Below are positions 8,663 through 64,000 of a stretch of DNA of 64,000 bases, one piece after another. Position numbers and translations under genes: made by a program. Every line of letters begins with the position of its first letter. Position 1 is the stretch's first letter. The notes beneath the pieces were generated by a model. The model made no database searches and had not been told where the DNA came from. It worked only from the letters and a program-made list of their open reading frames with translations. Where the stretch lies: positions 18,501,103 through 18,565,102 of the forward strand of contig OU744452.1 in NCBI GenBank assembly GCA_916610825.1, written 5' to 3'. The stretch is from Haliclystus octoradiatus. Lineage: Eukaryota > Cnidaria > Staurozoa > Stauromedusae > Haliclystidae.

Positions 8663-9530
8663 GTAAGTAACATTGTTACCTAAAGTTTTAGCCTTGATAT
8701 ATACCTAGATGATGATCCCACTTGTTTCGTCCTCAGTCCTGTTTCGATAGTTGAAGGGAACTATCGGATAACAATTATATTAATCGGCAATTATCAATAT
8801 GTATGCTCCGGTTTAACAATCAAGTGGATGGCAGATATCAAACTAATTAACAGGCATTACGTTACACGCCTATGCATGGATTTCACTACACTGTTTGAAT
8901 AACTAGTGGATTCTATCATCCTGATTAAAAATGTTTATGCAAGATGTATGGATCAACTGCTAAATACACAAACTGTGTAGATAATCTCAATATTCTAAAT
9001 GTATTGAGTCATATACCGAATTTGTCAAAAATGTTTACTTTTGAGTATTACTTTGAAACTGAAATAAAATAAAAAAGAAATAAATATGAAATTCAATCAA
9101 TCAAATATATAAATTACACAAATAAATTACAAATGTACAATTGAAATACATTAAAAATATAATAATAACACACATTATACTGTACTATAATCAGGCGCAG
9201 ATTCAGGAATTATTTTATTGAGTTCAAAATTATTTACTCCATTTGCCACGCCTATTTGTACACCAAAGAAAAATTGAGCAAGAAGAAACAGGTCAGTAAA
9301 AAAATCTCATAACGCTAAACATACAATGACAATAAATGTTAAATTGTAATGACTATTTAACTTATGTTAAGCATAAATATAAATAATTATATTGGATTTC
9401 ATTTCATCAAGAACTAGTCTTCAATCTCTAATTTACAATTCAGCTACAATCTGCAATATTAAAAAATTACAATCCACAATTGAAAAAATTTATATGAATT
9501 ATAAATATTCACTCTAAAAAGGGTATAGTA
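8663..9530 (+). repeat. Copy A intron-1 segment, homologous to 12710-13613
   Basis: The segment is close to identical to the start of gene B intron 1, with scattered substitutions. The homology stops at GGGTATAGTA: copy A continues into the transposase tail and copy B into unrelated intron. This marks a duplication or recombination breakpoint. Confidence 0.75.
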
Positions 9531-12390
9531 AATTTCTACTGAAAAATGGGTTTAACTATGACCTTAGGGAAAGATTCATGCAAGACGTACTTGAGGAATA
9601 TTTTGGATACCAATGCAGTAATGGATATATGATGATTTATTTAATTAAATTTTGGAGATTACGTTTGAAAATGCTTAAAGTGATGAATGAGGATTCTAAA
9701 AACCACCTCTATCGAGGTAATCACTCTTTTCGGTATGCTTCTCTAAGGGTCTTTGAAAAAGGTTCTCTATATCGTTCAGCCAAGGTCTACAACGACCTGT
9801 TTCAGACATTGCCCTTTTAAATAATTTTGAAAGAACAGTTCCAGTAACAAAAGCCATAGGCCCGTGAATTTGATAACTCCGTAATATCTGGATCGTCCTG
9901 CTGTTTGACAAAAGCCACCGACTCTGGTGCAAGTCTCATCGAAAAATAAGTTCACGGCAGCAATATTATCGTCTGGGTAGAACAATGAACGCTTTGAAAT
10001 GACTGATTTGGGAAATTTTGAACAAAAGCTTTCCACGTTCCTCCGTTTACGAAACGTGGACACAAGATTGTTAAATTGCACATGAATTTCTGAACAAATA
10101 GGACGAGGGACTTTGTCCAACACAAATAACCTGAAATTGTCTTTTCATTGACAATCTTGCAAATATTGCTAGCGTCTTTTTCTGAAAACGAAGTAAATGT
10201 ACAGTTAACATTATTGTCAATATTAATTTTTCCCATGTGCATACTCAAGCCAGCTTTTGATATGCACACTTTAAGCACATTTCGCAAAAGAATTTCATAA
10301 TATCAATCATTTCATCAAGGTCTTCATTAGAAGCAAAAATAAACATCGAGACATAACTCCTCATTTATCATAATAATCTCAAGTAATTCAAGAGATTCCG
10401 AGACCAAAATCTCGGTGGAAATAACGTTATAATTGTTGCTATTAGCCATTGCAAACTCGAGGAAATGAAATGGCATTTTGATTTAAGGCTTCAAAAAATG
10501 ATGCTAAGTGAATGTCACATGACCACATTATGAACATCACACAATGGCGCTTTTGCTCCCCGCAAAAGCTTTCCTAACCAGTCTAGTCGATAAACTATGT
10601 GATAACTTAAGTGTGGTAGACACAAAAGCTGTCTACCCTTTCCTTCATGCACCAGTCGTCAAACAGTCAAACGCAAATGACAAAAACTCAATAGAACACA
10701 CATCAGTTCAGTATGTTGCCAAATTGGTTTTACTATAACAAATAATAATCAATACAAATATTACGAATCTAATTAATACTAAACATAAAATACAAGGTGC
10801 GAAACAGTGTTGTGAATGCAAATACCTTAGATCTTCGCTCACGGTACGAAAGGATAACAATATGAGTGATTTCTCAATCGACTTATCTCTTCAAACTCTC
10901 AAACACAACTACTACTGATCGCGTAATTTACAAGAAAAGTTTACAAACTCTATTACTTAAGGTGTGCCTAAATTCTACCAATAAAATAAGTCCGAAGTCA
11001 TGAATCATCTATATATATTTATATTCACGTAAAACCATCATTTAACGCGGAACTTTAATACAGTATTATACAATGAATCATGGCATGTCAATCGAACATA
11101 AAACGAACACTAAATATATATAACGTCATTCTATTAAATCAATTAAAATTCGAGTTAAATGAAATACAGTTTAGAAACATAAGTCAAAATAAAGCTAACT
11201 TAAAATATCAAAGTACAAACGAAATTGAAATAATATAAAATATAAGTGAGCAATATTGACGTTAGCATTAAGTCATTTGCAAAAAAGTTATGTATAACTT
11301 GGAAGCTTCATAAAAATGATGATGATAATGATAATTATGCCAAGCTCACTTATGTCAATAGTATGTATGGAAAAGAAAGTTCTCACTTAATTCATTATGC
11401 CCAGCATTCGTCTTTGTAGTCGAGAAAGTTAGAGAATTGGAGTTATCTACTAATATCACATGCCCCATGCCAAAAATTGAAAAATATTAATGATAGCGAT
11501 CCATTTTTATATTTCCAAATTTCAAAACAATTCAACAATGATTATACTTTGGCAAATTCCATTATGAAAATCTTCAACTATTTCTTTTTTTCTTGACCAA
11601 TATTTCGTGTTCAATACAATCATATTACCATTTTAGTCCTAATCTCTGATATGCAAAGTCAAATGTGTGGCTTTCTATCAGAGATATAACTTTGGCATGG
11701 ATTTATCGCTGAGACAAAAGGGCAACTTCCCCTACACTTTTGCTTTATTCAGTAGCTAATTGATTCAACTCGGCAGTAAATTAATAATTTTCTTCTCAAG
11801 GAATCCTTGGTTTTAATAACTGATGCAAAAACTGTTGAAATAAAGCAATGAAATATGTTTGATCGCTGCTTCTTGATCATTAAGTTGCGGCTTTAGTTTT
11901 ATCTCAATAAATTCAACCTTATTTATCCTCTGCTACTTTACACAGCAAAAATTATGGTTAGGACTTGATATCACAGTTACGTGAACAGTTTTGTTTCTCT
12001 GTAATCAAGATGTTCTCCAATCAATTCGGAATGCTGATGATCACCTTTAAATTATTATACTATATATATTGTGAATATCATTTTATCTTTTCATAATTTT
12101 GTAATTGTTTAATTGTTAATCCTGTGCAATAGATTAAATTTGATCCATTTACATATAACGGTTGACGTCATCTTAGCATATGATGATGATGACGATTTAT
12201 GTCTATGTTAAATAATTAATAGTCAAAGATACAGATTTCAATAGAAAGCTTTCTTTTCTTTGTTTTGTCCATCGTTGCTATTAACAAAATTTGTGTTTGA
12301 ATATCAAATATTTGTGCGTGTTTTTTCATAATCTAAAATTTGATGAGACATTTCTAAATCAAACATCTAAGCTTCGAAGGAGATACAATT
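9531..12390 (+). repeat. Segmental duplication unit upstream of lectin B (copy of ~29855-32720)
   Basis: About 2.9 kb here is collinear with about 2.9 kb upstream of lectin C. It begins with the tail of a P-type transposase (frame words LRE.FMQDVLEEYFGYQCSNG, 9540-9635) and runs through an unknown minus-strand ORF region, a shared 64-codon plus-strand frame (10544-10738 against 31043-31237) and the lectin 5' flank. Relative to the other copy about 176 bp is deleted after 9622. Exon 1 of B follows directly, so transposon tail and lectin promoter duplicated as one piece. Confidence 0.8.
9696..10287 (-). other. Unknown minus-strand ORF region, copy 1
   Basis: Two overlapping open frames (9776-10123 and 9952-10287) occur here and again, slightly changed, at 30218-30622 and 30451-30786. 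Shared words are ESFCSKFPKSVISKR and FTSFSEKDASNICKIV. Further up the same strand is another short frame starting MANSNNYNVIS near 10450. The pieces look like parts of one frameshifted coding sequence of a mobile element, but I do not recognise the family and assign no function. Confidence 0.3.
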
Positions 12391-12397
12391 TATCACA
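10739..12397 (+). other. Noncoding stretch with lectin B 5' flank
   Basis: A+T-rich DNA without recognisable exons. From about 11500 it is the lectin 5' flank shared with copies A and C. No clear TATA box was singled out. Confidence 0.4.
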
Positions 12398-22970
<10,573 letters not shown>

Positions 22971-25958: not shown

Positions 25959-28900
25959 ATGCCTGGTGGAAATTGCGCTATTCCAAACTGCGGTACTTGC
26001 TACATTGATAAGTACCGACACATAGCCCTGTTCAAAATACCTAATAAAAAGATCGAACGATTGAGAGAATGGAGAGAACAAGTTATTGGTGTACTTACGA
26101 GGGGTCGAACAGTTGATAAAACATTAAGAAAACGCATTGACGATGGCCGTGTTTGGATCTGCGAGAGGCACTATCATCCAAGTGAATACGATACATGTAA
26201 GTTGATATAAATGCTCTCACATTAGTCATATATTATGATGAAAACGTACAGGTACACATAATTTTGATGTCTTTATTTAAGCTTATAAACATGTTATATT
26301 TATTGATGATGCTTTGGATAGAACAATAATTTCAATTATATACCCATACCTCCCACTAGAGCTGATTTGAGGGTAAGGGTGTTTGATCTTTTCTAGATAA
26401 TCTGGATCCGAAAAATATGGATTGAAATCATTGTCCAGGCCATAAAAACAATAAAAAGATCTGAAATGGATCCGAAATAAATCAAACCCCACCACAGCAT
26501 GCCAAATAATTTAGGAGACAGACATATTATCAAAATAGTTAACTCATCAAAAATGTATTTTGGATCCTGTTCCTATCCAGCTCCACAGTGACCAATGACC
26601 CATAACTGTCCAAAAATGAAAATCTGGCTGGATCAGGGTTCATTTCACCTCCAATGTAAATACCATTTAGAACAGATGAATTATTGAAATATTTTTAATT
26701 TTAGATGGAACTCGTAAACTTCTACGTGAAGGATCAATACCATCACTCAACTTACCCGCAAAGAGCATTCAAACAGCTGTACCTCCTGAGCGTCCCTCTA
26801 CTTACATTGAGAAAATAGAATTATTCAATGATTGCAGTGGTACAAGTAGTCAAAATAAGCAGAGCTATCGTGACTTTGATGAGCTGGTGAAACGAACAAA
26901 ACATCTTAGCCAAAATTTCCTGTTTCATGTGACTGAAAATGTGGCCTTTATAACTATTGAATGTGACACATTTCATGTACCACAATTTGAGATATGCATC
27001 GATGACCTTCTTGACTTCAAAGTAAGAGTGTATGGTTGGCTCCTACCTTCAGGAAATAGTTTAATCAAAGAAACTAATTCGTCATTAAAAAGCTGTACTG
27101 TATCAAAATTGATTGGGGTATTAAAATGCGGTACGTTATGCAAAGGTACAGGAACAATTTATGAACATCAAAATCATGTTTTACCTTACAAGATACCTGC
27201 AATCAAGCAGAAAATTACTAATGAAAAATGCAAACAGTTAGAATTCAACAGAGATGAAAAATGTGAAGTTTTACTTACTGACGGAGAAGACATATGCGCC
27301 CAGTGCAAACGGCACCAAAAAACACAAGAGAAGGCATTAAATCAAAAAAGAAAACATCAACAAACACCTGCAAGCAAAACTGCTCCAGTGTCTGCAACAT
27401 CAAGTGCAAGGTTAAAATTAACGCTACAAGCTCAGAGACTTGAATGTCATCAACTTAAAGAGCAAATAGCTGAGATACAAATTGAGCTGAAAACTATGAG
27501 TAAATCTGTTAGTAACGACACAGCATCTGATTTGCAAAACATTTATTCAAACGCTAAAAATGTCCCACCTTTCATGAAAATATTTTGGGAAGAACAACAA
27601 AAATATATACATGAAAATAAATCACAAATTAGGTATCATCCTCAAATAATTAAATTCTGCTTAGCAGTAGCGGCAAAGTCACCAGCTGCCTATAAAGAGT
27701 TACGTTACAATGAAAAAGATGGCACAGGCATTTTGATCTTACCGAGTCAACGGACGTTGCGGAGTTATAGAAATGTGATCAAACCCATGAGAGGTTTCAA
27801 TCCAATGGTTGTAGATGACCTTAAGCTCAAGACGGAGCACTTTGCAGACTGTGAGCGTTTTATAATTATTGCATTTGATGAAATGAAAGTACAAGAAGAT
27901 CTCGTGTGGGATAAACATTCAGGAGAGCTGATAGGATTTGTTGATCTTGGTGATGCTGACGTGACTGATAACCTTGTGAAAGCAAACGACCAACTTGCGA
28001 CCCATATACTAGTCTTCTTGGTAAAAAGTATTGTCAATCCTTTGTCTTACAGTTTCGCTACATTTGCTACTGCTGGTGTTACTGGAATTCAGCTATTTTC
28101 ATTGTTCTGGAAAGGAGTAGGAATTTTAGAAATGTCGTGTGCATTGAGAGTTGTAGCAGCTGTTGGTGATGGAGCCTCTTCAAATCGTAATTTCTTCAAC
28201 CTTCATGGTTATATGGAAGGCTCCAGCACAAACAATGTTGTCCGCAAAGCCCAAAATATTTTCTCTCCAAATTCATTCATCTATTTCTTCTCTGATGCAC
28301 CACATTTGATAAAGACATCGCGTAATTGTTTGTACCAGTCTGGCACAGCATCAAGATTAATGTGGAATGATGGCAAATATCTTCTGTGGTACCATATTAG
28401 CAGTATTTATAATGAAGACTTGGAATGTGGACTCAAGCTATTGCCAAAACTCACACATCAGCACATTTTCCTTACTAAATACTCCAAACTGAATGTTAGG
28501 CTAGCTGTCCAGGTTTTAAGTACAAGTGTTGCAGAGTTATTGACGTCATTTGGGTCAGATGAATCTCTTGGAACAGCAACCTATGTCCGAATGATGGACA
28601 GCTTCTTTGATGCCTTAAATGTGAGGAATAAACAAGAGTATGTTATGAAAAGAAAGCCTCAACTAGCACCTTACTCGTCACCCACTGATCCAAGATTCAC
28701 TTGGTTGCTAACAGAGTTTCTAGAATATTTCAAGAAATGGAAACAATCAATCTATGACAGGAAGGGAAATTTTCAAGAAGCTGACAGGAAAAAAATGTTT
28801 ATTTCTACTCAGACACATCATGGCTTACAGATCACAGTGTATTCATTGACCCAGTTAATACCCTATCTTTTAAACAACGGGGTAAAATACGTATTGAGTG

Positions 28901-29064
28901 AGAAATTTTGCCAAGATGACCTAGAAAGGTATTTTGGAAAGCAGCGAGCGATAGGAAGAAGCCAAGACAACCCAACTGTTTTCAAATCAGGATATCATGA
29001 TAGTTTTTGTACCAGTTTAAAATCCTACTACTATGAAAGGTTCAACTGGTGGCACATCATTTAA
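25959..29064 (+). CDS. P-element-type THAP-domain transposase (P1), 2 exons, C-terminus chimeric
   Basis: Exon 25959-26196 joins exon 26705-29064 through a GT-AG intron (split Tyr codon), giving 865 residues without a stop. Residues 1-75 form a THAP zinc finger of C2CH type (C-x4-C at the start, ICERH at the end), the DNA-binding module of P transposases. A basic, coiled-coil-like stretch follows (around residues 240-290). The RNase-H-like catalytic core shows AFDEMK (Asp 471), VGDGASSN (Asp 568), SDAPHLIKTSRNC and QDDLERYFG (Glu 820). These are the expected acidic residues, so the core looks chemically intact. The frame leaves the family pattern after NPTVFKSGYHD, where it runs into the interior of a second transposase out of frame. 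The last ~24 residues are therefore junk. P transposases cut and paste DNA in the nucleus; this copy lacks its normal C-terminus and a visible 3' end. Confidence 0.85.
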
Positions 29065-32173: not shown

Positions 32174-32727
32174 ATTTCGTGTTCAATACAATCATATTCC
32201 TATTTTAGTCCTAATCTCTGATATGCAAAGTCAAATGTGTGGCTTTCTATCAGAGATATAATTTTGGCCAGCAAACATTATGATTAGGACTTGATATCAC
32301 AGTTACGTGAATAGTTTTATTTCTCTGTAATCAAGATGTTCTCTAATCAACTCGGAATGCTGATGATCACCTTTAAATTCTTATACTATATATATTGTGA
32401 ATATCATTTTATCTTTTCATAATTTTGTAATTGTTTAACTGTTAATTCTGTGCAAATAGATTAAATTTGATCCATTTACATATAACGTTTGACGTCATCT
32501 TAGCATATGATGATGATGACGATTTATGTCTATGTTAAATAATTAATAGTCAAAGATACAGATTTCAATAGAAAACTTTCTTTTCTTTGTTTTGTCCATC
32601 GTTGCTATTAACAAAATTTAGTGTGTTTGAATATTAAATATTTGTGCGTGTTTTTTCATAATCTAAAATTTGATGAGACATTTCTAAATCAAACATCTTA
32701 GCTTCGAAGGAGATACAATTTATCACA

Positions 32728-35700
32728 ATGAATAAAGGATTCGAAGAAAATCTAATGAAAGTGTTTGCTATTGGATGTTTAATTGCATTTGTTGATGCTC
32801 AATCAAAATACGCACTTGTTGCTGAACCAAAGATTGAAGGTGAAGAACTAAAATCATCGAACGTGATCAATGTTTTTGAATGCGCAAGACTTTGTGATGA
32901 TGAGAATTGCTGCAACAGTTTTTCAATTGAGGACGCAATTTTACCATCTCAGATGCTCAAATGCATCAATGCATCTTATTTCATCTATGGTTCATGTCTA
33001 CTAATGTTCATTCAGAAGGCAGTGGATATTCTCACTTTTTCCAAAAAGTAAGTAAGGAAATTATTTGCATTAAATTTAGTTACTATTATCATAATTCTAA
33101 TAATATTAATTGATTAGGATGATCAGTCACATGTTTCAGGTTCCTAAATGATTAATCATTACTATTGAGCCTCAAATTTAAGCCTGGTTTCAATATAGAG
33201 TCGTGTGATATCGGTGAAAATCGCCGCTACTCACCCGAATTTGAAAAATGTTTGATTTACTCGATTCATTTCCAGCGTAAGTTTGATTTTCATCAGCATT
33301 TGCACTTAGTGTCTCCTGATTGTAAATAGAAACCAAGCTTCAGCCAAGATCATTATCATTGGCAAATCAAAAGTTATTTCCACGTGTTCGCCAAAATGGT
33401 AAAAGTATAAACATTTTGTTTAGCTTATCAGAACAACAGTACGGTTGTGCATCCCCTGATTGATATAACACATAAAACTTTCAACACTCTCCTTTGCAAC
33501 ACTTTGCACAGTGAGTTGATGATATTTGAGCCGTGAATTCTGAAACGCAACTTCTTTTATTGTAACATTTTTTGAAATACACAATAAATTATCAATACGA
33601 GTTGAATATAAAAATGATGACAATCAGGGTTTCAAATACGAGATATATATGTCCTTAGAATCATCAATCCATGCGAACAAGTCTTAAATTTTATCATAAT
33701 ATTTCTTACCAAAAACATTGCGGTTGGAAACACAGACAAAAGAACTACTGGGCAACGGTCAGTAGTTAAATTTAGTTGGAATCAATTTATAGCAAACCAT
33801 AATATCCAAACACCCAAAAATCACATATGATGTTTATTTTGTTTCGATTGAGGTTCAGTAATGTCGGTGTAATAGAAATACAGAAATTTAAGACGTTGAT
33901 GGTCTTTGATGTTGTCAAAATGAAGCTAGATTCGATATGTTTCTTCTCTGCAAGAAATATCACATTCATAGATTTGTAAACAAGAAAACAGTATCAAATG
34001 TGCACAGTTATCTACATTATGCTTTCTTTCAACAAAATTCTTTATTCTATATTACATCTTTGGTAGCGTTCTGAGCAAATCACAAAACACTTCTTTATAG
34101 TTTAATTACTGCCATCGAAACACTTTTCGAGATATCTTCCTGTTACCAGATTTCATCGCTATGAAAAACTCAAAACCGGATTGGTGATGTCACAACTGGT
34201 GTTTGAAAATGAAGTTTTGAAAAAATGTATTTTTTTTAAAACAATTATCGCTGGTCAATGATGCCCCTTTAAAATCTTATGAAATGTTGAAATCTAAATA
34301 GTTCGTATCAAATTTTGAGCATCGTCTTGGTATTTTTAATGCATCATCTAGGGAACAAAATTCCCTTCCACTGTTCCCATCTTGAATAGAAGACAAGGAA
34401 ATACAACAACAATTAAGATTGTGCTAGGGTTATGCTGAAGGATTTTATAATTGATTTATAGTTTTTAAAAGTTTCAGAAAGTTTCATACGGTTTTGATGG
34501 TATATAGCGCATAATCGAGAAAGCTTCTTGTTTAATTACTGCTATGGCATTTATTTTTCAACCTTGCTGTTTAGTTACTTGGAATTTGATTATTGGATAA
34601 TTATTATGATATCGATATATCATTGTTATGTAATTAGCATTGTTATGTTATTATGAAATTATGTTGCGTGTTGATAAGTTGAAGATCTAAAAGTATTTGT
34701 AATGCCTGGATTGGTTTAAGTGTATTTATCTGCAAAAAATAATTTTATTACATCCTTTTTAGGTTATTAGATCAAGAAGTAACCTCCCTGAGCATGGTAA
34801 ATGTTGTATTTTTTTTCATGATTTTGATGTTTGATGTAATATTTGTTTCATGGCTTTTCCTATACATGATGTCTGAAGTAGCGTTATAGTTTTCGTAGCA
34901 TCATAGCCGATCTCAATAAATATCAGATAAATATCACAATGCAATTGAAATCCTCCTGTTCCAAATTCAATTGTAATTGAGATTGTTCAGTAATATCATT
35001 AATTAAAAATATAAAAAATAAAAAGGCATTGTTCCCCTTTTCTTGTAGAAATAAATTTGATTGACCTCCCGTGTGATCAGATATCAGCTTACAGCATAAG
35101 GTATTGCAATATCGCCATTGACAACAACAACAATGGAAATTGTAGACAGAATCAATGCATTGATACAGGTCATACTAGCATTGATCCCTGGTGGCAAGTG
35201 GATTTAAAAAGGAAAAGAACTATTACTAAAGTGATAATTTATAGAAGAACTGATAATCACGATGAACGTTTTACAAGCGTCACAATCCAAGTGCAAAATC
35301 AACCAATGCCGGACAAGGATTGTGCACAAATGTAAGCAGTATTGATATGTAACTGATATAATTCTTTCTATGAATTTTAATGATATTCTATGCAATCTAA
35401 CCCATCTTTGCAATGATGTTCGTCAAATGTTAAATATTTGGAATATGGATAAACTTCTTTTTATATGAGGCTACAGTCGAACTTGCTTAATATTCCCTCT
35501 CTGGTACAGTGGAAAATAGGGACATTGAAGGAGGTAGGATTATGAGAGTTTGTATGGAGAATGAAAAATAGAAATCAGTTTTATATTAAGCAAGGGGGTA
35601 TTAAGCAAGGTAGGATATTAAAAGAGAAGATATTAACCGAGTTCGACTGTATTGTAATATGTTGTGACATATACGGTTAGGTCATAAGAGTTAATTAAAA

Positions 35701-40440: not shown

Positions 40441-41108
40441 TGGATTCAAGATGCAAGACAAGTCTGTGCCACTTTGCCTTCCAGGTGAAAAGGCTTCAAG
40501 TTTGGACCATCTTGAAAATGATATCCAAAACCTTTATTAGCTTTAAAAGGATATTCAAATATTTGAAAAATACTAAAAACTATACCTCGCAATTTACTAA
40601 ATTTTTTAGGTATAGTTTTCAGTGTTTTTCAACTAGAACTTTTCTTTTTTTATAGATTTTACAGATAACATGGAAACATTTGTCCAATCTTGTATTTGAA
40701 ATGTACCCCGAACCTGTTTTAAAAGCCGAAAAAGGTTACCAACCCAAAGTGACACGTCCCTGTACATAAAAAAATATAAAATACATAAATATTATCATGG
40801 ATGCGCGGAGATATTGGATTAACCTTTCAAAACTATACCTACATACATATATAGATATAAGTCATGGCATTTTCTGGTTTCACAGCTGGAACCAAATTCA
40901 CAAATGATTCCGAAATTGAAAATTTGATACCTCAAAAAACTGGCCAGCATGATGCCAAAATAGTACAAATACTGTTACATCTCGTATACAGCACCTGTAT
41001 GGACGTACCTTTCCACCGTTTTGACGCTGATATTTTGAACTGCTGCCACTTCAAGTTATAAAGAAAAATATCAAAACATGACAACATGGAATTGTGGGAA
41101 TTTTTTAA
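40250..41108. repeat. Duplicated D block, copy 1 (partner 46020-46718 + 48656-48802)
   Basis: Alignable with the region left of and right of the LINE at 46719-48655. Shared words are GTATGGACGATTGAGTAAATC-like, GGACCATCTTGAAAATGATAT and GCTGATATTTTGAACTGCTG. It adjoins the cationic-peptide gene and belongs to the same tandem duplication. The 65-codon frame at 40864-41061 is not conserved in the partner. Confidence 0.75.
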
Positions 41109-41274
41109 TGCCATATTTCTTAATTAAAGAGAATAATTAATTACACATCCAAATGTAGAAACCATCCGGTTTTTTCTCACTATGAGACTTTATACCGTGG
41201 ACTACCTACTACATATCATTTAAAGCAAATCCATTATCTATAAATTGGCAATTTTTGAGAGTGTACAGATAGAT

Positions 41275-43694
41275 CTATTTTTTGCCGATAAGAGTTTTGG
41301 CTCCATGAGTGAGAGCTCCTCTGCAAAGTGGGTTCGATAAACATTTTCTGGTTCTGAATCTGATTCCCCATCGGCGGCGACGACGACGACGACGACCACC
41401 CCATGGTTTTGGGTCTTGATTTTCCCTCTCCATTGAATCGTGCATTTGTTCTTCCAATTCTGAAATTATAATTAGAGCATTATTATATTATGAACATAGT
41501 ACAAAATTAGGCACGCTGTTTCATTTGTAAGTTGCAACTATTGTTATTAACAATCAACAATCCATTACACATACGCTTGTTTTATGTTTTACATCATTTT
41601 TGACTAATTTTATTTAAATGCTATAACTTGTTTTCACAAATCATCTAAATGTATAATATTTCATTAATCACTTTATAAATTTACATGTATCCCAAATAAA
41701 CAAGTTTTGATTGATTCAGGGATTAATCTTACTGTGTATAACTTATTAACTTTCAAGTAAGTCGATTTGTTTATAAGTGCTTCACATGATTAAAAATAAA
41801 CATCTATCTATATGAGAAGAAGTAAGATTTTGCTCAAATTTGAGGCTTAATGTTCTGATAAAATATAGTCTAAGTTTAAGCTGTAGTTCATGATCTTGGA
41901 AAAAGATGATTTGCAATTGTATGCAGTCATTGATAGTGACTTTATGGAGCAATAAATTAATAATACAGTGTTATTTCTGATCCGGGAGCCGGAGAGCTTT
42001 CAGGTGCTTTTTGATATGTGTAATCAATAGCCTGCGTCACAGACCAAAACATTTGAAGATGTTAGAACTAACCCCCCCAAATGTTTTGACTTGTGGCTCA
42101 GGCTAGGTCATCATGCGATTTGTCAATTGGGAAAGTTCAAATCAAATTTCATTGTATCAAAGACAACGTAATTTCCAATAAAATGAATCTTAAAAAGTTG
42201 TATAGATATCTCTAATTGTATATTTGTAAAACGTTTTGTCCTACTGACTGAACATAGGGCTCAATGCAAAATATAGCAGAGCTTTAAATAATAAAAGTCA
42301 GAGAATCAGACAGTCACAATAGATATTGAATAGATTGCCTGTGATCGCCTCGGCGTGAAACTTCAAGTAGCAAACAGGACTGTCTGATTCTCTAGTTGTA
42401 TAAGTAAATCTAGTTAGGATGATGACAAACCATGTATAAAATGCACAAAATAGCTGATTAAATATTTACCTTTCATGGCTTCGTCTTCTGCTTCTACTAC
42501 ATCTACACAAACAAGCAAAAATAAAGAATTGAGCATTTCATATTTACAAATTATTCGGCATATCCTGAAAAAACACTGAGGAAATAAAATCAATGTATAA
42601 ATTCTTTACGGACTCAATTCTTGCCTCGTGCTGTGGAATTTTACCACCCTCCCCGAATTCTGAAAATGGTGCAACCGCCATAGCTTTTGATAAAACCATT
42701 CTCTATATAGAATTTTCACATCGGCCGTAATAATATGTTATAACAATAATGCATCCATGGTTCACGGTAGCCGCTGTCACTGTCTTTCTAAAATAAACAA
42801 TCAGAATTTATATATCTTCTCTTTAAATAATTCTCCCGAGATTCAATGGGAATCATGAGTGACTTCAAAAGCTCTATAGAATTGTATACTATTGAAAACC
42901 TTCAGATTGAACAATAAATACTACATGAACTATATTTAAGAACTTGATACAAACCATACATTTATTTTGATTTAAAAAATAAATAAAAATTCTTGTAACA
43001 TTAGCTACTCACCTTCGTCGTCCATTTCATCTTCTTCCCCTGAAAGCAGAAAATTTATTCAATATTTCATTTCAAACGCATATAAAACACACGATAATCT
43101 GCAACGGCTTCGATTTATCCTAAAATCATTGTAAGGCAATTAAAAGAAAGAGAGAACAGGTTTTACATCGTATTGAAAATTAAAAGTAATTTATATAATC
43201 TATTGAAATTTGGGGCTATATAAGACTATATCACACTAAACCAATGAATGAGACATTAATGACAGAAGAGATAGTCTACAGCGGTACTAATTACGGATAA
43301 TTTACCAAACAAATATGGAATAACAATCATTGTTATATGAAGAAAACAATGAAACAAAGCATTGGTAAAATGTTCTATCAGAATGATTACAGATATTATA
43401 ATTTTTATTGTCCTTCAGATGTTTATAATAAAAATATTGCCAATCAAGATAAAAAAAAAACAGGAACAGTCGTCTACATAAGACCCAATCCAGATAAATT
43501 CAACAATATATACATAAGTAGACCTATTTAGAATTGATCGATTTCAAATGACGGAAGACCACTTCGAAGAGGTGGTCATATTAACAGGGTGTATGCTTTT
43601 CTCTAGACGAAGTATACTATAGAAACTTACCTCTGACAAATACAGTAGCAAAACAAAATCCGAAAAGGCATAATAATAAAATAGATGACTTCAT
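41275..43694 (-). CDS. Secreted arginine-rich cationic peptide precursor, copy 1 (four coding exons)
   Basis: Reading the minus strand, coding exons are 43694-43631, 43039-43013, 42502-42470 and 41459-41275. All introns are GT-AG and phase 1; total 309 nt for 102 residues. Residues 1-21 are a hydrophobic signal peptide (MKSSILLLCLFGFCF...). Residues 22-50 are strongly acidic (EEDEMDDE, EAEDEAMKELEE). The tail is cationic: PKPWGG, eight arginines, WGIRFRTRK, a short cysteine loop CLSNPLC and a Lys-ending amphipathic stretch (GAKTLIGKK). Signal, acidic pro-piece and basic mature part is the plan of many antimicrobial-peptide precursors, including ascidian ones; the acidic part would neutralise the basic part until cleavage. 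I know no family with this exact tail, so the function is inferred from architecture only. An untranslated first exon and TATA box lie upstream. Confidence 0.75.
42300..42393. mobile_element. Half-deleted foldback MITE in intron of peptide gene 1
   Basis: The ends AGAGAATCAGACAGTC and GACTGTCTGATTCTCT are kept, but most of the left arm present in the other copy (59710-59861) is missing. Confidence 0.7.
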
Positions 43695-43733
43695 CGTTGA
43701 TAAATCGTTGATATGATATAAATGATTGTAAAT
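43695..43733 (-). other. 5'UTR part of coding exon, peptide gene 1
   Basis: A CTTCTAG acceptor just 5' of 43733 (minus strand) starts this exon 39 nt before the ATG. This supports a separate untranslated first exon. Confidence 0.6.
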
Positions 43734-44261
43734 CTAGAAGTAAAATATTGGAATAAAATATTAATGTTGAATGACGTTCTGAGTTTTTATTAATACGAAT
43801 TTCAAGAAAAGATAAATCAAGATTTGATAAAACCTTGGTAATCAACATTGCCCAGATGTATAAATACACAAATTATATTTCATACATATACAGATAACAA
43901 TTATTCATTAAATATAAAAAAAATATCATAATTCATAGTTAAGATAAAAGACCTCACAATGTGATTATTAATTCTGTTCGTCTTTAATGACTAGAAGTAT
44001 CTTTCACAAAAATTGAAATCATTGCATGAAGATCTAAATCTCGATGATGCTGACAAAGAAGTGTCTCTCTCTTGTTCCAATTAAGGTATAGAAACACATG
44101 ATATTTTATGTTTCACAAACGCAAATCATTCGAACTACAAATACTATCAGAAAGTTTTTGCACTATGTTATGTTGAGTTGACACAGTTTCTGCATTACAG
44201 TACCACCAAAAGAGATATATAGTATATAAGATAATAAACTAAGAAATAAATAATTTCTTAC

Positions 44262-44340
44262 CTCAAGTTAGATGTGAATTTTCTTTGATGCTGTAAAATT
44301 TATAATATCAAAAGAAGGCAAAAAATTGTGCTTATATAGG
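44262..44340 (-). promoter_or_regulatory. TATA box and untranslated first exon, peptide gene 1
   Basis: On the minus strand CTATATAAG (44331-44340) is followed about 28 bp later by the likely transcription start. A short untranslated exon then ends at a good donor (TAACTTGAG|GTAAGA; last exon base 44262). The same arrangement recurs in gene 2 at about 61720-61801 and, decayed, near 63210-63240 and 45690-45720. The start site itself is inferred. Confidence 0.55.
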
Positions 44341-45130: not shown

Positions 45131-46019
45131 TCTATTTTTGAATGACATGACAATTGAGAAATTCCGATGGACAATTTTGTTCCGTATTTGCTGACGGTGT
45201 CGAATGTCTCATTTTCGAGGATCAAATGTTACAAGCCTTCAGCTGCTAAAAGACTTCCTTAAAAACATAAACGTTATACATATGCACCTTTTATTATTAT
45301 TTGCTCATTATTATTAGTCATTGTGATCAGGATCGAAGAACTAAACGTTTGTCCTTCTAGAATCCGACAACACCTCAATATTTTATCAAAATTATGCAAA
45401 GGGACTATTCGAGTTACAGCTCTATGACATTATGAATGCAGGTAAATTTGGAGTGAAAAAATTCACGTCTACATAGATTTGTGTGGTCCTCCGAGGAACC
45501 CGAGGGGAAATAAAACTCACTATTCCCGAGGCAGTCAACAGTAGGTGATTTAGCTGTTTATTCAATCATGGTTTTTAACTAGACAATAAAGACGCAGCAG
45601 CGATAGTAATAATTTAATTTATTTTAATTATTCATATTACAGTACAGCAGAACATAGCAATAACAATGAAAAGTCGTAATATCAAAAGAATGCAAAACTG
45701 TGCTTATGTCCCGGGTGGGGGAGATTCTGATACATTGGCTATACGGAGACGGGCCATTTTTGAGAGGTGCCTTGTTCCAAATTCTAGTGAAATTTAAAGG
45801 TGTCATGCGACAATAATCAAGCCATCGCATATTTGAGGGCGCTTCAAAACCACACAAATAACGGAAAAATACGAAAATTTTAAAGCAAAATAAGCTTTAT
45901 CAATCATCCCAACCCAGGCAATTCTGTATTGAATACTTAGTAAGTCATTAGTATCATATTTAAAATTTAAATTATGTATTGATAAATCTACAACGTCATG
46001 TATGATTATTTAAAAAAAA
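45131..46019. repeat. Relic upstream region of a further peptide-gene copy
   Basis: 45540-45730 aligns with 62960-63270 and contains the promoter-like phrase ATCAAAAGAATGCAAAACTGTGCTTAT, a relative of the region at the TATA box of genes 1 and 2. No signal-peptide exon remains here. The rest is A+T-rich without genes. Confidence 0.5.
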
Positions 46020-52556: not shown

Positions 52557-55500
52557 CAGAGCTATCTATTAAGAAGAGTTAGGACAACTATTGTTCTCGC
52601 AGCTGCGGTCGGTGATTGGCCGAATCGTCTCACGTGATAATTTTCGGCCATTTTTGATCCAAAAAATTGCGCGAAAGTTTAACAAGGTTAATCCTCGTGG
52701 TGATCTTTCTGTCTTTTGACGTTAGCTGTTCATTTGTTTTAATTTTATTGTCACATAGAATAGAATTATAATATAACTATTTTGAATTTTCAATGACTGG
52801 GTGTTGTGCTGTTGGATGCTCAAATCGTGATGACAATGGAAATCATACAATGTGCAGTGTTCCTAATGGAAAGAAGGACAAGGAAAGACGTGCTGTTTGG
52901 ATGGCAGCAATCAAAAGGGAACATTTCAACAGCAGATCATCAAGACTTTGCGAGGCAAATATTAAATATGTATTTCTGTAATTGTTATAATATTAAACTA
53001 TTTGAACATATCGAAAACGACTGATATCTGACTTATAGCCTTCTTACTTAATTAAAGGTACATTTTGAAAGTAATCAATTTGAAAGCAGAATTCCTGGTA
53101 AGCTCAAACCAAATGCCATACCTACAATTTTTTGTCATAAAAAAACAGTAAACAAGAGAAAGAGTCCAACAAAAAGAACATCTTTAGGTAATCTTTGTGT
53201 AAATTTTTTGATGATAAATGAATTTGTTTTGAATTCAGTAAAAATTGACTGATTAAAATATTAAAATTTACTACCTTCAGATCCATCTGCTAAAAAACAG
53301 AGAAAGACCTCGTCTCATGCAAATGACATATCGGTAGTATCAGGATATGATGTAAATGATGACAATGAAGAATCCTCTATTTGTACAGTTACAAATGAAA
53401 ATGAATTCGGAAAATGGCCTGTTGACACTTTTAATATCAATCAAGTACTAAACTAAAGAGACAATTAAAGAAGGCAGACGAAAAATACAACAACCTGTCA
53501 AATAACATTTCTGGCATCTTCAACGATGATCAGATAGATTTTTTAACAAAAAAACCTGGTTCATGTCGTGGTACGCTAAATATAGATATCATATATCAAC
53601 ACTGAATTTGTCATTCAAAAGTAGAATTAATAATTTATATATAATATATTACTTTATTTATATAGTATTATGGTCAAACAAAACAGTTGAGAATGCCCTC
53701 AAAATACGATATGCTTGTGGAGCAACTGGGTACACCTTATTACTCCAACAAAGTTATCCATTACCCTCCATTCGAACATTAAACAGACGAATGCAGCACA
53801 TTCAATTTTTGTCAGGCCTGATCAAAGAAGTTTTCCTAGCTCTTGAACAGGTAAGGTAAGGCTGGTGTGATCTTAAAATTGCTACTGTAGTGAAACCTTG
53901 TAATCTTGTAATAGTGCAGCAACGTGTCTATACTGGTAAGGTCACAATATGAACAATTTATATCCACATTGAATCCAACATCTCCACAAGGGTCAGCTCT
54001 TTACAGTGGTAAATCTTGAAGCTGGCTGTAAGTTGTGCACAGGTTTTATTGTATGCATAACACTTAACTCTAGACTATAGTATCCTCATACTTTTTACTT
54101 TCGAGGTACAAACAATGACAGAACAAGAGAAGTGCTGTGTACTTTTATTGGATGAAATGGCAATCAAACCAGTATTTGATTTTGATCGTCGAACAGAGTC
54201 CATAATTGGACAATGTACTCTGAAAGGTAGTAAGGAAAAAGTGATGGATGGTGAAGCCGCAAACCATGCTCTTGTATTTATGCTATGTGGTTTAACAACG
54301 AGATGGAAACAGGTGGTGGCATATTATTTCACTGGCTCGTCATTTGACAGTTTAGAAGTGCACGATGTCATCATTAAAATTATTTCAAGGGCATGTGAGA
54401 TTGGTCTTTCCACTTTGAATGTTACCATGGATATGGGTGGTGGTAATATTGCGGTCTTGAACGATTTTAAAGTGTCCTGTAAGAGAAAAAAGAAAAAAGC
54501 AACTCTTGAAATTCCAAACCCAGCACCTGAAACCCACCTGAAATCATTATAAAAAATTCATGTGAACACCCAGTTCTAGAAAAGCAGGAATTGACCTTTA
54601 TGCCTGATGTCCCACATTTAATAAAAAATTTGAGAAATCATCTATCTCGAAGGCAAGTTATATACCTTCCCGAAATAATTGTCAAATCGAATAACCCTTC
54701 CCGAAATGAAAGTTAATTTGGCAAAAAATTTACTCTCAAGAAGAACTGGGGCTGCAGTAAGATTGTTGGTGCAAGAAAAATTTCTACATAGATCAGCTTT
54801 ATCAACTGCCTGGTTTTGTGAGCAAATTGGTCTGTGGTTTGATTTAATGACTTCAAGATCACCGTCAATGAGCCTCAGCCTTTTTGATAAGGAAAAGCAT
54901 GAAGAGGTTGTAAAATTTTTAAATTCCATTATTGACCTTTTTAAATGCCTAAATATTGGAGACATTGATGCACCATGGAAACCAGTGCAGTCAGGCTTTA
55001 TTTTGGCAACAACAAGTGCTCTGCAATTGCAGAATTGTTTGTTAATGGAGAAACAGTACAAATTCTTAATGATAAGCCGCTTCACACAGGACGCTTTGGA
55101 AAATTTATTTTCATCTGTTAGATATAAAAATCCGGTCCCAACTGCTATTGAGTTTGTCAATGCATTGCGTATAATTGCCATTTCACAGTGTATTTCAAGC
55201 AAAAACACTGGTTCATACGAGAAAGACGAGGATCAACCATGCTGCAGTATTCTGGACATGGAATTCCAATTATCACCTGATGATAAAAAGCTTGATCAAG
55301 CAGATGAGATTGAGAATGGGGACCTTACAAAGTTGGAAGATTTCAGCTTAGAAAACTTAGGCGGCTATGCTGTCCACCAGTTTTTAAATCTCAATAAGCA
55401 TTGCGCAGAGTGCAAGAATATGCTTGTGGTTCCTGCACCTGCACTAGCCCAACCATTGGATGTCAGTCATGATTATGGATGTACACCAAAATCTCTAGTG

Positions 55501-56354
55501 GAACTAGCAGACTATACTAAAAAGGCGCTGACATATATTTCACAAGATGCTAAGGAAGTATTTATGTTAGCAGAAAATATATTCCGCAAAAACGAGGATA
55601 AATTGTTTTCCCACAGCAACATTATGCAGAAACTTGTGGATGCATCTACAATTGCAAATAAAACTAATAAAATACCAGACTGTCACAAGGCCAAAACGAT
55701 GATAACTAAAACGTTCTTCAGAGTTAAAATCAAAACAGTGCTGGAAAAAAGAACAAAACAAGCAAATGCTGTGAAAGCAACCTCAAAGGGGTCAAGATCC
55801 ATAGCGATGAGGGATGCCATAAAATAGGATCGGTTAATGATTATAAGACCAACATACTATGATGTTACTATATTGTAAAATAAATAACGAATAATAAAAA
55901 CCTCACATACCACATCTCCTTTATTCTTCAATCCAAATTGATTTAAGCTGTTGTTATGGCAGAGCTGTCTATGGTTATACGGCATATAATCTGCAATTTA
56001 TCGACAGCTGCTTATTAGTTTGCAGTGAGTGCACAATACCGCACACTATCGGTAAGCTGTTTAGCTGACAAATCCACAACAACGCTCTAAACACGCTTCC
56101 AGCAAGCTTACATACCACTATTTCATTACTAAAGGCTTCCAGTTAATTGATTGAAGTCTTCTTCAAACTTCTTAAGATTCTTTTTATGATTTATTGTTAT
56201 ATTTCAGGTATAATTATTATATAAAACTCCATAATAAACGCGTGCAACCTTCGTTTCTCAAATTAAACAAGTTTGGATCAACAATAGCCGCTGGCCGCGC
56301 TAAAAACTTGGTCCCAGACTACCGTGTCCTAACTCTTCTAAATAGATAGCTCTG
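52557..56354 (+). mobile_element. P-type transposon (P2), 3.8 kb, perfect 8-bp target duplication
   Basis: Inverted termini start CAGAGCTATCTATT at each end and match over about 30 bp with one mismatch (to AGTTAGGACA). GGTTAATC borders the element at 52549-52556 and 56355-56362. 8-bp duplications are the rule for P elements. It contains a split, frameshifted THAP transposase gene. Both ends are complete, so it would be mobilisable if transposase were supplied. Confidence 0.9.
52793..55827 (+). pseudogene. THAP-domain P-type transposase of P2, frameshifted
   Basis: Inferred exons are 52793-52954, 53058-53187, 53281-53570, 53666-53850 and 54109 onward. The THAP finger starts MTGCCAVGC and closes across the first intron (RLCE|VHFESNQFE). 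The donor there is GAG|GCAAAT, so this is a GC-AG intron. Then come KLKPNAIPTIF, a basic linker, a coiled-coil LKRQLKKADEKYNN (reached by a frameshift near 53450) and SIRTLNRRMQHIQFLSG. The core has LLLDEM (first Asp), VTMDMGGGN (second Asp), FMPDVPHLIKNLRN and TQDALENLFSS (Glu). Further shifts lie near 54530 and 54670. The final 382-codon frame (54679-55827) is open. Catalytic residues are preserved although the gene is broken, suggesting recent inactivation (or sequencing indels). It is of a different subfamily from P1. Confidence 0.82.
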
Positions 56355-58681: not shown

Positions 58682-61156
58682 CTATTTTTTGCCGATAAGT
58701 TTTTTGGCTCCATGAGTGACAGCTCCTCTGCAGAGTGGGTTCGATAAACATCTTCTTATTCCCCATCGGCGGCGTCGGCGACGACGACGACCACCCCATG
58801 GTTTTGGGTCTTGATTTTCCCTCTCCATTGAATCGTGCATTTGTTCTTCCAATTCTGAAATCATAATTAGAGCATTATTATATTATGAACATAGTACAAA
58901 ATTAGGCACGCTGTTTCATTTGTAAGTTGTAACTATTGTTATTAACAATCAACAATCCATTACACATACGATTGTGTTATGTTTTATTGCATTGTTGACT
59001 AATTTTATTTATATGCTATAACTTGTTTTCACAAATATTCTAAATATAATATTTCATTAATCACTTTATAAATTTACATGTATCCCAAATAAACATGCAT
59101 TGCTTGCTTCAGGGATTAACCTTATTGTGTATAACTTACTAACTTTCAAGTAAGTCGATTTGTTTATAAGTGCTTCACATGATTAAAAATAAACATCTAT
59201 ATATATGAGAAGAAGTAAGATTTTTCTCAAATTTGAGGCTGAGTGTTCTGATAAAATATAGTCTGACAAAAAAATGCATCTGGCTCAATTATATTTAAGC
59301 TGTAGTTCATGATCTTGGAAAAAGATGATTTGCAATTGTATGCAGTCATTGATAGTGACTTTATGGAGCAATAAATTAATAATACAGTATTATTACTGAT
59401 CCGGGAGCCGGAGAGTTTTCAAGTACTTTTTGATATGGATAATTCTTAGCCTGCGTCACAGACCAAAAAATTTGAAGATGTTAGAACTAACCTTTTAAAA
59501 TGTTTTGGCTTGTGGCTCAGGCAAGGTCATAAAGCGATTGGGAAAGTTCCAATCAATTTTTCATTGTATCAAAGACAACATAATTTCCCATAAAAGGAAT
59601 CTTAAAAAGTTGTATAGATATCTGTAGTTGTATATTTGTAAAACGTTGTCTTACTGATTGAACATAGGGCTCAATGCAAAATATAGCAGAGCTTTAAATA
59701 ATAAAAGTCAGAGAATCAGACAGTCATGTTTGCTACTTGAAGTTTCACGCCGAGGCGATCATCAGGCAACCTATTCAATCTATTGAATAGATATTGAATA
59801 GATTGCCTGTGATCTCCTCGGCGTGAAATTTCAAGTAGCAAACAGGACTGTCTGATTCTCTAGTTGTATATATATATGGTTAGGATGATGACAAACCGTG
59901 TATAAAACAAACAAAATAGCTGATTAAACATTTACCCTTCATGGCTTCGTCTTCTGCTTCTACTACATCTACACAAACAAGCAAAATAAAGAATTGAGCA
60001 TTTCATATTTACAAATTATTCGGCATATCCTGAAAAAAAAACTGAGGAAATAAAATCAAGGTATAAATTCTTTACGGACTCAATTCGTGCCTTGTGCTGT
60101 GGAATTTTACCACCCCGAATTCTGAAAATGGTGCAACCGCCATAGCTTTTGATAAAACCTTTCTCTATATAGAATTTTCACATCGGCCGTGATAATATGT
60201 TATAACAATAATGCATCCATGGTTCACGGTAGCCGCTGTCACTGTCTTTCTAAAATAAACAATCAGAGTTTATATATCTTCTCTTTAAATAATTCTCCAG
60301 AGATTTAATGGGAATCATGAGTGACTTCAAAAGCTCTATAGGACTGTATACTATTGAAAACCTTCAGATTGAACAATAAATACTACATGAACTATATTTA
60401 AGGGTTTACTACAAACCATACATTTATTTTGATTTAAAAAATAAATAAAAATTCTTGTAACATTAGCTACTCACCCTCGTCGTCCATTTCATCTTCTTCC
60501 CCTGAAAGCAGAAAATGTATTCAATATTTCATTTCAAACGCATATAAAACACACGATAATCTGCAACGGCTTCGATTTATCCTAAAATCATTGTCAGGCA
60601 ATTAAAAGAAAGAGAGAACAGGTTTTACATCGTATTGAAAGTTAAAATGTAATTTATATAATCTATTGAAATTTGGGGCTATATAAGACTATATCACACT
60701 AAACCAATGAATGAGACATTAATGACAGAAGAGATAGTCTACAGCGGTACTAATTACGGATAATTTACCAAACAAATATGGAATAACAATCATTGTTATA
60801 TGAAGAAAACAATGAAACAAAGCATTGGTAAAATGTTCTATCAGAATGATTACAGATATTATAATTTTTATTGTCCTTCAGATGTTTATAATAAAAATAT
60901 TGCCAATCAAGATAAAAAAAAACAGGAACAGTCGTCTACATAAGACCCAATCCAGATAAATTCAACAATATATACATAAGTAGACCTATTTAGAATTGAT
61001 CGATTTCAAATGACGGAAGACCACTTCGAAGAGGTGGTCATATTAACAGGGTGTATGCTTTTCTCTAGACGAAGTATACTATAGAAACTTACCTCTGACA
61101 AATACAGTAGCAAAACAAAATCCGAAAAGGCATAATAATAAAATAGATGACTTCAT
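58682..61156 (-). CDS. Secreted arginine-rich cationic peptide precursor, copy 2 (four coding exons)
   Basis: Coding exons on the minus strand are 61156-61093, 60501-60475, 59968-59936 and 58854-58682, same phases as copy 1, 297 nt for 98 residues, with all splice sites kept. The signal peptide and acidic pro-region are identical in protein to copy 1. The tail keeps eight arginines and CLSNPLC, but four residues (FRTR/K) are deleted after WGIR, giving WGIRRCLSNPLC. ALTHGAKT becomes AVTHGAKK, one charge more. Differences thus concentrate in the putative mature peptide while the leader is unchanged, a pattern common in host-defence peptide families. The exons are too short for gene finders without transcript data. 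Confidence 0.75.
59710..59861. mobile_element. Complete foldback MITE in intron of peptide gene 2
   Basis: About 152 bp, almost entirely two ~64-bp inverted arms (GAGAATCAGACAGTC...TTTGCTACTTGAA...CACGCCGAGG) round a short centre. Copy 1 of the gene has lost most of one arm. Confidence 0.8.
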
Positions 61157-61717: not shown

Positions 61718-61802
61718 CTTACCTCAAGTTAGATGTGAATTTTCTTTGATGCTGTAAAATTTATAATATCAAAAGAAGGCAAAAAATTGTGCTTATATAG
61801 GT
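61718..61802 (-). promoter_or_regulatory. TATA box and untranslated first exon, peptide gene 2
   Basis: Identical arrangement to gene 1: CTATATAAG on the minus strand about 28 bp before a short untranslated exon ending at TAACTTGAG|GTAAGA. Confidence 0.55.
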
Positions 61803-62959: not shown

Positions 62960-63270
62960 TCCCGAGACAGTCGTACATTGGTGTATTCATGTTTTTTAAC
63001 TAACAGGCATAATAATAAAAGAGCTGACTTCATCATTGATAACTCGTGGATAAACAAATGATTGTAAATCTATTAAAAAAATAGTAGTTCGTCATCGTCA
63101 ATCGTCAACTAGACAATAGAGACGTAGCCGCAGTAGTAATAATTTAATTTAATTTAATTATTCATATTACAGTACAGCAGAACGTAGCAATAAAAAATCG
63201 TAAGATCAAAAGAAGGCAAAATTGTGCTTATATCCCGGATGGGGGAGCTTCTGAAACATTGGCAGTACGG
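62960..63270 (-). pseudogene. Relic of a third cationic peptide gene (signal exon + promoter)
   Basis: Minus-strand 63040-63003 reads ATGATGAAGTCAGCTCTT... = MMKSALLLLCLL, matching the start of MKSSILLLCLF and then losing the frame, with no donor. About 200 bp upstream the phrase AAGAAGGCAAAATTGTGCTTATAT (on the plus strand) matches the TATA region of genes 1 and 2, with the box altered. No pro-region or mature-peptide exons follow. Confidence 0.6.
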
Positions 63271-64000
63271 GGACGTGCCATTTTTATTGGGTGCCTTTTT
63301 CCAAATTCTTGTGAAATTTTACGGTGTCAATTTAGAGATTTTTGAAATTTTTAGAAACTTTCCTTTGTTTTACTCGTAAAAACATGAAATTTTAGGGTCT
63401 CCATCTCACTTGCTGTGACATTTTACAGTTGTCTTCGATTTCTGAAAATGGCATACCCCCTCCGTCAAAAGTGATCGAAATATTGACCTCCGGGGGCTAT
63501 GTAGGTCTTAACGAGGAAGCAGTTTGACTCTTGACTTTATTTTAGAAAGTGCTTCTATTGCAAAGCTGTAATAGGACACATAGTTTATTATGGTGATCTG
63601 GGGTTGCGAGAAAATATGTATTTCAAATGCAATGCTATACAATAAATCATTAAATACATAGAGAACTTAGAGAGAATATGTCATAATGATAATTCAAGGT
63701 GATAACTCATTATTTAATGTTTCTTGGATGCGCAAATGTGACATGTCAATCTGAAAGTTAAACAAATAAATTATGTCATCATAATTAACCGTTTAGATTT
63801 TCATAATAGTAATAGTCATTGTTATTTGACGTTGTTACTGCATACACAAGCATGAAATCCTCATCTTGATGTCAGACATGAATTTTATAAAATAATTTGA
63901 TTAGCCAATGCCTTTAAAATCATGTGGGTTTTAAATTATATTTGTCATTAAATCCAAATTTGATATAACAAGGAAACAAATTTATTAGTCGGTTATATGA
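63271..64000. repeat. Diverged upstream flank of the third peptide-gene copy
   Basis: 63490-64000 is collinear with 44340-45120 and 61800-62580 (GATCTGGGGTTGCGAGAAAATAT, AACAAGGAA.CAAAT words) but clearly more diverged. The duplication array probably continues beyond the window edge. Confidence 0.6.

Follow-up and report, generated by a model that had tools for sequence, protein, structure and literature searches.

Arginine-rich peptide genes in Haliclystus octoradiatus

A 64,000-nucleotide stretch of the genome of the stauromedusan Haliclystus octoradiatus (GenBank contig OU744452.1, here C8, positions 18501103-18565102; hereafter the window) carries a minus-strand gene, copy 1 (c1), for a precursor in which a leader, an acidic pro-region and a peptide with eight arginines follow one another. 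Copy 1 belongs to a gene family that is real and under selection, and whose arginine-rich, secreted-looking peptides carry an amidation signal. The product is probably a secreted, amidated antimicrobial (host-defence) peptide of the arminin type, which the acidic pro-region would keep inert. Judged by sequence, shared ancestry with the arminins of Hydra is the likelier of the two readings of this resemblance, although it is not proven.

Structure and conservation of copy 1

Copy 1 is laid out as one non-coding exon and four coding-containing exons, with 64, 27, 33 and 185 nt of coding sequence (Table 1). When the minus-strand segments 43694-43631, 43039-43013, 42502-42470 and 41459-41275 were joined, a frame of 102 residues and a stop codon was obtained, and all three coding junctions are GT-AG and in phase 1. 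The four-exon, 102-residue precursor that an earlier sequence-only reading had proposed was thereby rebuilt exactly, and the gene model is exact to the base. The order of its parts is MKSSILLLCLFGFCFATVFVRG-EEDEMDDE-DVVEAEDEAMK-ELEEQMHDSMERENQDPKPWGGRRRRRRRRWGIRFRTRKCLSNPLCRGALTHGAKTLIGKK. A TATA box and an untranslated exon, also proposed in that reading, were recovered as TATATAAG at 44338-44331 and a 5' exon ending at 44262, and the acceptor of exon 2 (TTCTAG) lies directly before 43733. Acceptor and donor of exon 2 are kept in copies 2 and 3. A possible polyadenylation site similar to that of copy 1 was found at a similar distance in copy 3; in copy 2 the sole such site detected is about 300 nt downstream of the stop codon. 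The reading had described one gene, and here it fell short, as copy 1 is one of at least 14 loci.

Copy 3 (C8:18588190-18590761) lies on the opposite strand to copies 1 and 2 and was aligned over C8:18587180-18591050. Copy 1 is not a chance gene: in this diverged copy the reading frame, the TATA box, donor and acceptor of the 5' intron and every splice site of the three coding introns are retained, while introns 1-3 are at 57-60% identity (56.8, 58.2 and 60.2%). The coding exons of the two copies are 85.9, 77.8, 84.8 and 91.4% identical. The intron in the 5' untranslated region (UTR) speaks against reading this contrast too broadly: it is 81% identical over 466 aligned columns (313 gap columns), its conservation is not exon-specific, and exon and intron show no contrast there.

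The ratio of amino-acid-changing to synonymous substitution (dN/dS) between copies 1 and 3 was 0.26 (Fisher p 1.4e-4 on rounded counts), and by part it was 0.08 in the leader, 0.26 in the pro-region and 0.45 in the peptide, with few changes in each. Codon comparison thus indicates that copies 1 and 3 are under purifying selection. Between copies 1 and 2 there are six synonymous codon changes, three that alter an amino acid and four missing codons, with the protein changes confined to the tail. Two of the arginine codons differ between them, yet the arginines stay eight, and this number is held in c1, c2 and c3 despite codon changes. That the genes are unexpressed relics or a chance reading is hardly credible: truncated relics are present in the window, but frames, splice sites and promoter are kept in diverged copies, at the low dN/dS given above.

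Two inverted repeats lie within intron 3 of copy 1 (window 42028-42105 and 42300-42393) and have relatives elsewhere in the cluster region. They are probably small mobile elements.

The family across the genome

The copy 1 precursor was used as query in a six-frame search of the 262-Mb assembly. This query found copy 2 in the window (58682-61156), copy 3, copy 4 as an intact last exon (C8:18565331), and two further genes, B (C8 5.51 Mb) and C (C8 6.29 Mb), which have similar small acidic exons. Upstream exons of copy 4 were sought and no convincing ones were found; in gene C a third acidic exon was not found, and it was modelled with three coding exons. Weak matches at C8 20.07 Mb proved to be genes D+ and D-, which have an acidic first exon and the last exons DADESVEEDPSPFFWRRRRRRFYYRRRRRSYRRRRRRWG and DADESEEEDPKALWYRRRRRTWRRRCGRRRRRRFVRRRG. 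With D+ as query, contigs C4, C10 and C1 gave further loci, as did C8 at 20.08-20.09 Mb, and the second C10 copy came from a later search.

Together, at least 14 loci on four chromosomes carry a basic, arginine-rich last exon behind D-P: c1, c2, c3, c4, B, C, D+, D-, D3 and D4 (the last four at C8 20.07-20.09 Mb), one on C4, two on C10 and one on C1. The count is a lower bound, because the genome search scores its best candidates only. Four of the 14 (C4, the two on C10, C1) are linked to the family by plan, without significant similarity over the whole precursor. In the models of D3 and D4, first and last exon were paired by nearness; the leader exons on C4, C1 and at the first C10 copy are unaligned candidates from a simple script, and for the second C10 copy no leader of arminin type could be assigned. 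Paralogues are clustered at C8 18.54-18.59 Mb and at C8 ~20.07-20.09 Mb.

Eight precursors (c1, c2, c3, B, C, D+, D- and D4) could be modelled, each with one arginine peptide holding up to 19 arginines and a longest arginine run of 6-9. The leader, read by eye, is hydrophobic and about 22 residues long; it has an exon to itself in c1, c2, c3, B and C, whereas in D+ and D- its exon also encodes acidic residues. Two cysteines stand five residues apart in the tails of c1, c2, c3, c4 and B. Genes C, D+ and D- are without this cysteine-loop tail, and in D+ and D- the arginines continue to the C-terminal end.

The two C10 loci (L050, C10:13268252-13271392, and L055) have two arginine-rich stretches in one exon, split by an acidic spacer (VEDPLFGFG and arginines, then QEDPSPLFGRFRRRIRFRRRFRVFRGKK); from their sequence these exons are two-peptide precursors of the same plan as the family. 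Further candidates were met in these searches. A locus at C7:23883650 (L013, C7:23882150-23885290) combines an acidic repeat frame with DPLWSGRRRRR and a cysteine-containing tail; on sequence grounds it is possibly a more distant member, and it was left out of the locus count, as was a match at C1:13382335 (L060, E 0.014). L014, L015 and L056 were dropped as members after scans showed no arginine-rich frame. Two matches to exon 1 alone were not counted: no arginine exon was found in the 3.1 kb scanned at C8:20028347, or in 3.1 kb plus 2 kb more at C7:20326256.

Charge balance, processing signals and proposed function

Last exons of 11 of the 14 loci were aligned, leaving out c2, one of the two identical D3/D4 exons and the second C10 copy. 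All 11 have D-P-x-[P/A] ahead of the arginines and a C-terminal G, GK or GKK, and the same two features were seen by eye in the three outside the alignment. Charges of pro-region and peptide, counted with the Gly-Lys tails in the eight modelled precursors, were -17/+17 in c1, -17/+16 in c2, -18/+18 in c3, -21/+25 in B, -12/+16 in C, -17/+17 in D+, -18/+18 in D- and -16/+15 in D4, and the corresponding values are -13/+12 for arminin 1a and -13/+11 for arminin 1c. The charges of pro-region and peptide nearly cancel in these precursors. Balanced charges and the very high arginine content would also suit a secreted structural or packaging protein, such as a counter-ion to a polyanion in nematocysts or the egg coat; this is very improbable, as the short precursors, changing tails and amidation signal would better fit host-defence peptides.

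The leader, acidic pro-region and cationic peptide uphold the host-defence plan proposed in the sequence-only reading. In the mechanism that we propose, the gene would be transcribed and its leader would route the precursor into the secretory pathway, where the pro-region (-17) could neutralise the cationic peptide (+17) until release. Cleavage would occur at the invariant Asp before P-K-P-W, a cut of the cnidarian acidic-residue type, and dipeptide trimming might follow; Lys-Lys would be trimmed off the C-terminus and the Gly converted to an amide. The freed arginine-octad peptide, with its putative small disulphide loop, may then bind and disrupt bacterial membranes at an epithelium. So short an arginine-rich peptide is probably unfolded on its own. 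Haemocytes had been named as the cells in which to look for the peptide; they would imply a bilaterian and do not fit a stauromedusan host, since cnidarians are not known to have haemocytes. A tunicate origin, which haemocytes would suggest, was rejected on the mitochondrial contig and the assembly figures.

Cu2_monooxygen, the domain found in the amidating enzyme and in related enzymes, gave 25 exon matches in the genome, 22 of them over the cut-off. Its bearing on amidation is lessened by the fact that the domain also covers enzymes other than the amidating one.

Release at an acidic residue has precedents. The N-side processing sites of cnidarian precursors are described as often being acidic residues, with basic sites at the C side, and X-P as common at the peptide N-terminus; it was also proposed that Hydra-RFamide-4 loses a K-P dipeptide, probably to a dipeptidyl aminopeptidase (PMC6402141, PMC8638164). 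The mature peptide here may start at the P, K or W of PKPW.

A different reading takes the arginine run as a convertase site and the amidated cysteine loop behind it (W..KCLSNPLC..TLI-amide) as a hormone or neuropeptide. Convertases cut at arginine pairs, cnidarian neuropeptides typically have C-terminal basic sites and amides (PMC6402141, PMC8638164), and the two cysteines five residues apart are kept in c1, c2, c3, c4 and B. However, a basic site on the N side would run counter to the cnidarian pattern just described, genes C, D+ and D- lack the loop tail, with arginines reaching the very end in D+ and D-, and the constant eight arginines of c1, c2 and c3 are more than a cleavage site needs. 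Cnidarian neuropeptide preprohormones moreover are multi-copy, with a Gly and a basic site after every peptide (PMC6402141), unlike the single arginine peptide in each of the eight models and the two stretches in each of the C10 exons. We regard the neuropeptide reading as improbable.

Comparison with the arminins of Hydra

The peptide sequence of arminin 1a is printed in PMC12011183. A database search with it led to the full precursors of arminin 1a (ARM1A_HYDVU) and arminin 1c (ARM1C_HYDVU), here P0002 and P0003. BLASTP aligned c1 with arminin 1a at 33% identity over 63 residues, from the leader to KPW (E 3e-5 in a single comparison), and the ordered match between c1 and the arminins runs L-E-E..D-S..R-E..D-x-K-P-W..R-R plus G-K-K. 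Profile-profile probabilities were 96.4% and 95.7%, values made generous by few sequences and biased composition. The best control was one in which leader, pro-region and peptide were each shuffled within themselves 5000 times. The score of c1 was reached by 0 of 5000 such shuffles against arminin 1a and by 0 of 5000 against arminin 1c; the corresponding counts were 2 and 11 for c3, 69 and 15 for B, and 51 and 78 for C. When the peptide alone was aligned and shuffled, none of 2000 shuffles reached the score against arminin 1a for c1, c2 or c3, compared with 18 for B, 17 for D3 and 27 for the C10 peptide. Similarity to the arminins is strong in c1, moderate in c3, B and C, and absent in D+.

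The likeness extends to the plan. Like the Hydra arminins, copy 1 encodes a short precursor with a signal-peptide-like leader, a strongly acidic pro-region with L-E-E..D-S..R-E..D, a K-P-W start of the cationic part, a final G-K-K and balanced charges; across the family the acidic front carries -12 to -21 in the eight precursors (arminins -13), the cationic C-terminal part +15 to +25, and a C-terminal Gly for putative amidation is present in 11 of 11 aligned last exons. Clustered paralogues with a conserved acidic front and a variable cationic tail are likewise reported for arminins (PMC10945409, PMC4820302), and here, too, the tails vary among paralogues. Hydra arminins are further characterised by expression in the endodermal epithelium and by bactericidal activity. 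The family differs in its longest arginine run (6-9 in the eight precursors, 2 in arminins), in the two cysteines of the c1-c4 and B tails, in D-P for D-A, in its tiny acidic exons and in belonging to another cnidarian class. The earlier statement that the tail matches no family holds for its central part but not for its G-K-K end, which, like the pro-region and the D-x-K-P-W junction, has a counterpart in Hydra arminins.

Several results weigh against shared ancestry. The comparison is post hoc, arminin having been chosen for its KPW start and GKK end. With leader and pro-region shuffled and the peptide left intact, the observed score was reached in 88 and 25 of 5000 shuffles for c1 (arminin 1a and 1c), 197 and 516 for c3, 556 and 310 for B and 237 and 199 for C. 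For D+, region-preserving shuffles did so 2783 and 564 times, and its likeness does not go beyond them. Peptide-only shuffles against arminin 1a left C4 (309 of 2000) and C (384) weak, and the peptides of C1, D- and D+ were no closer to arminin 1a than shuffles (1222, 1525 and 1608 of 2000). Fixing the first and last three peptide residues gave 22 of 2000 for c1, 16 for c2, 96 for c3 and 1185 for B, so that much of the peptide score comes from the K-P-W and G-K-K ends. In the six-frame genome search, arminin 1a had a single match, the last exon of copy 1, and this was weak (E 1.24), while arminin 1c returned no match at E<=10. The arginine run, finally, is no longer than 2 in arminins 1a and 1c.

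Such points would be expected if a secreted, amidated antimicrobial peptide had converged on the arminin plan without common descent. Composition alone yields part of the likeness, the D+, D- and C1 peptides and the D+ precursor stand no closer than shuffles, C and C4 are weak, arminin 1c matches nothing in the genome, and the arminin-like label has been given to placozoan precursors on the basis of their plan (PMC12013895). The absence of any region-preserving shuffle reaching c1 and the ordered match through D-x-K-P-W to G-K-K argue against it. We consider convergence unlikely, if still a serious contender, and shared ancestry the preferred explanation.

Other known systems and implications

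A plain search of the protein collection with the 102-residue precursor, a check that the sequence-only reading had called for, gave one candidate and none scored, and a profile search of the same collection gave one match only (P0001, E 0.93). P0001 is an unnamed 72-residue protein from a JGI metagenome in which K-D-P-K-P-W-G and five arginines come after an acidic stretch; in this genome it matches copy 3 best (E 0.0245). It differs in its cysteine-rich tail, and the database E value was only that given above. The second match of P0001 in the genome (L067) reads T-A-K-P-W-L-W, is without an arginine run and was not counted. HIV Rev, a nuclear RNA-binding protein without a signal peptide, was matched through its arginine-rich motif (E 0.2 in PDB; Pfam PF00424, 16.5 bits against a cut-off of 22) and was set aside as a match of composition; other Pfam matches to the precursor were below cut-off. 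The placozoan arminin-like peptides share a signal peptide, an acidic N-terminal and a basic C-terminal region and a final Gly with the present family, but their precursors are ~150-250 residues long and the likeness described for them rests on plan (PMC12013895).

Hydra arminins commonly serve as an example of young genes, restricted to one genus, that take part in shaping a microbiome. They are called strictly confined to Hydra and no older than ~200 million years (PMC10945409), or exclusive to Hydra (PMC11051070, PMC6369191). For Staurozoa, three antibacterial peptides were predicted from in-silico proteolysis (PMC11820242). Searches on arminins, jellyfish, Haliclystus and Staurozoa antimicrobial peptides turned up no arminin-like Staurozoa genes in the literature within reach, most subscription papers and the Ensembl annotation of this genome (announced in PMC9975415) lying outside that scope.

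We lean slightly towards the view that an arminin superfamily already existed in the ancestor of Staurozoa and Hydrozoa, with a charge-balanced precursor, release at D-[P/A]-x-[P/A] and amidation of the C-terminus, from which stauromedusae would have derived natural polyarginine peptides encoded on several chromosomes. Such a superfamily would have escaped notice because the coding exons measure 27-185 nt and the tail changes fast. If ancestry is indeed shared, the arminin family would be much older, dating from a class-level split, and an orphan family would become a missed one. Acidic pro-region, D-[P/A]-x-[P/A], arginines and G(K)n would serve as a search motif for further members. The polyarginine form is better known from synthetic cell-penetrating peptides; here it would occur in natural, secreted and amidated peptides with a built-in safeguard for the maker.

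Features of the window and the mitochondrial contig

Table 1. Features of copy 1, copy 2 and related relics, in window positions
Feature	Position	Strand	Remarks
TATA box, copy 1	44331..44338	-	TATATAAG; from sequence; identical in copies 2 and 3
5' non-coding exon, copy 1	44262..44308	-	start inferred from TATA distance; end is the base preceding GTAAGA; donor kept in copy 3
Exon 2, copy 1	43631..43733	-	39 nt untranslated (43733-43695) and 64 nt coding (43694-43631); leader MKSSILLLCLFGFCFATVFVRG
Exon 3, copy 1	43013..43039	-	27 nt; acidic pro-region part 1, EEDEMDDE
Exon 4, copy 1	42470..42502	-	33 nt; acidic pro-region part 2, DVVEAEDEAMK
Exon 5, copy 1	41275..41459	-	pro-region end, DPKPWGG, eight arginines, CLSNPLC, GKK, stop; 91% identical in copy 3
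Possible polyadenylation signal ATTAAA, copy 1	41104..41109	-	~166 nt past stop; consensus match only
TATA box, copy 2	61792..61799	-	from sequence
Leader exon, coding part, copy 2	61093..61156	-	from sequence
27-nt acidic exon, copy 2	60475..60501	-	from sequence
33-nt acidic exon, copy 2	59936..59968	-	from sequence
Last exon, copy 2	58682..58854	-	eight arginines kept; tail four codons shorter
Relic of a further copy	63002..63329	-	promoter and start of leader exon; breaks off within leader
Promoter relic upstream of copy 1 (same promoter)	45577..45805	-	from sequence

Elsewhere in the window, two exon-sized plus-strand frames at 319-2494 belong to a trypsin-family serine protease (Pfam PF00089). 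Three very similar, secreted-looking PAN-domain-like frames (8312-8683, 12371-12730 and 32677-33051, plus strand) lie in segmental duplications of ~1-2 kb; the one tested scored 19.9 against the PF00024 cut-off of 21.4. Transposase frames of the P-element type, with TNP-like RNase H and GTP-binding-insertion domains, were found on the plus strand at 26680-29064 and 54061-55827, one open over 794 codons and the other in two pieces. Long TTA repeats (19592-19786 and 20290-20619) come after a reverse transcriptase fragment (PF00078) at 18934-19467 (plus strand).

Contig C33 (18,316 bp) is the mitochondrial genome. Two tRNAs only were above the Rfam cut-off. The large rRNA shares a strand with a cox1-like frame; the small rRNA and several ND frames are encoded on the opposite strand. 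Genetic codes 4, 5, 9 and 13 are not told apart by frame length alone; ND1 and ND4 are sensible with AGR read as Arg (code 4), not as Gly (ascidian code 13).

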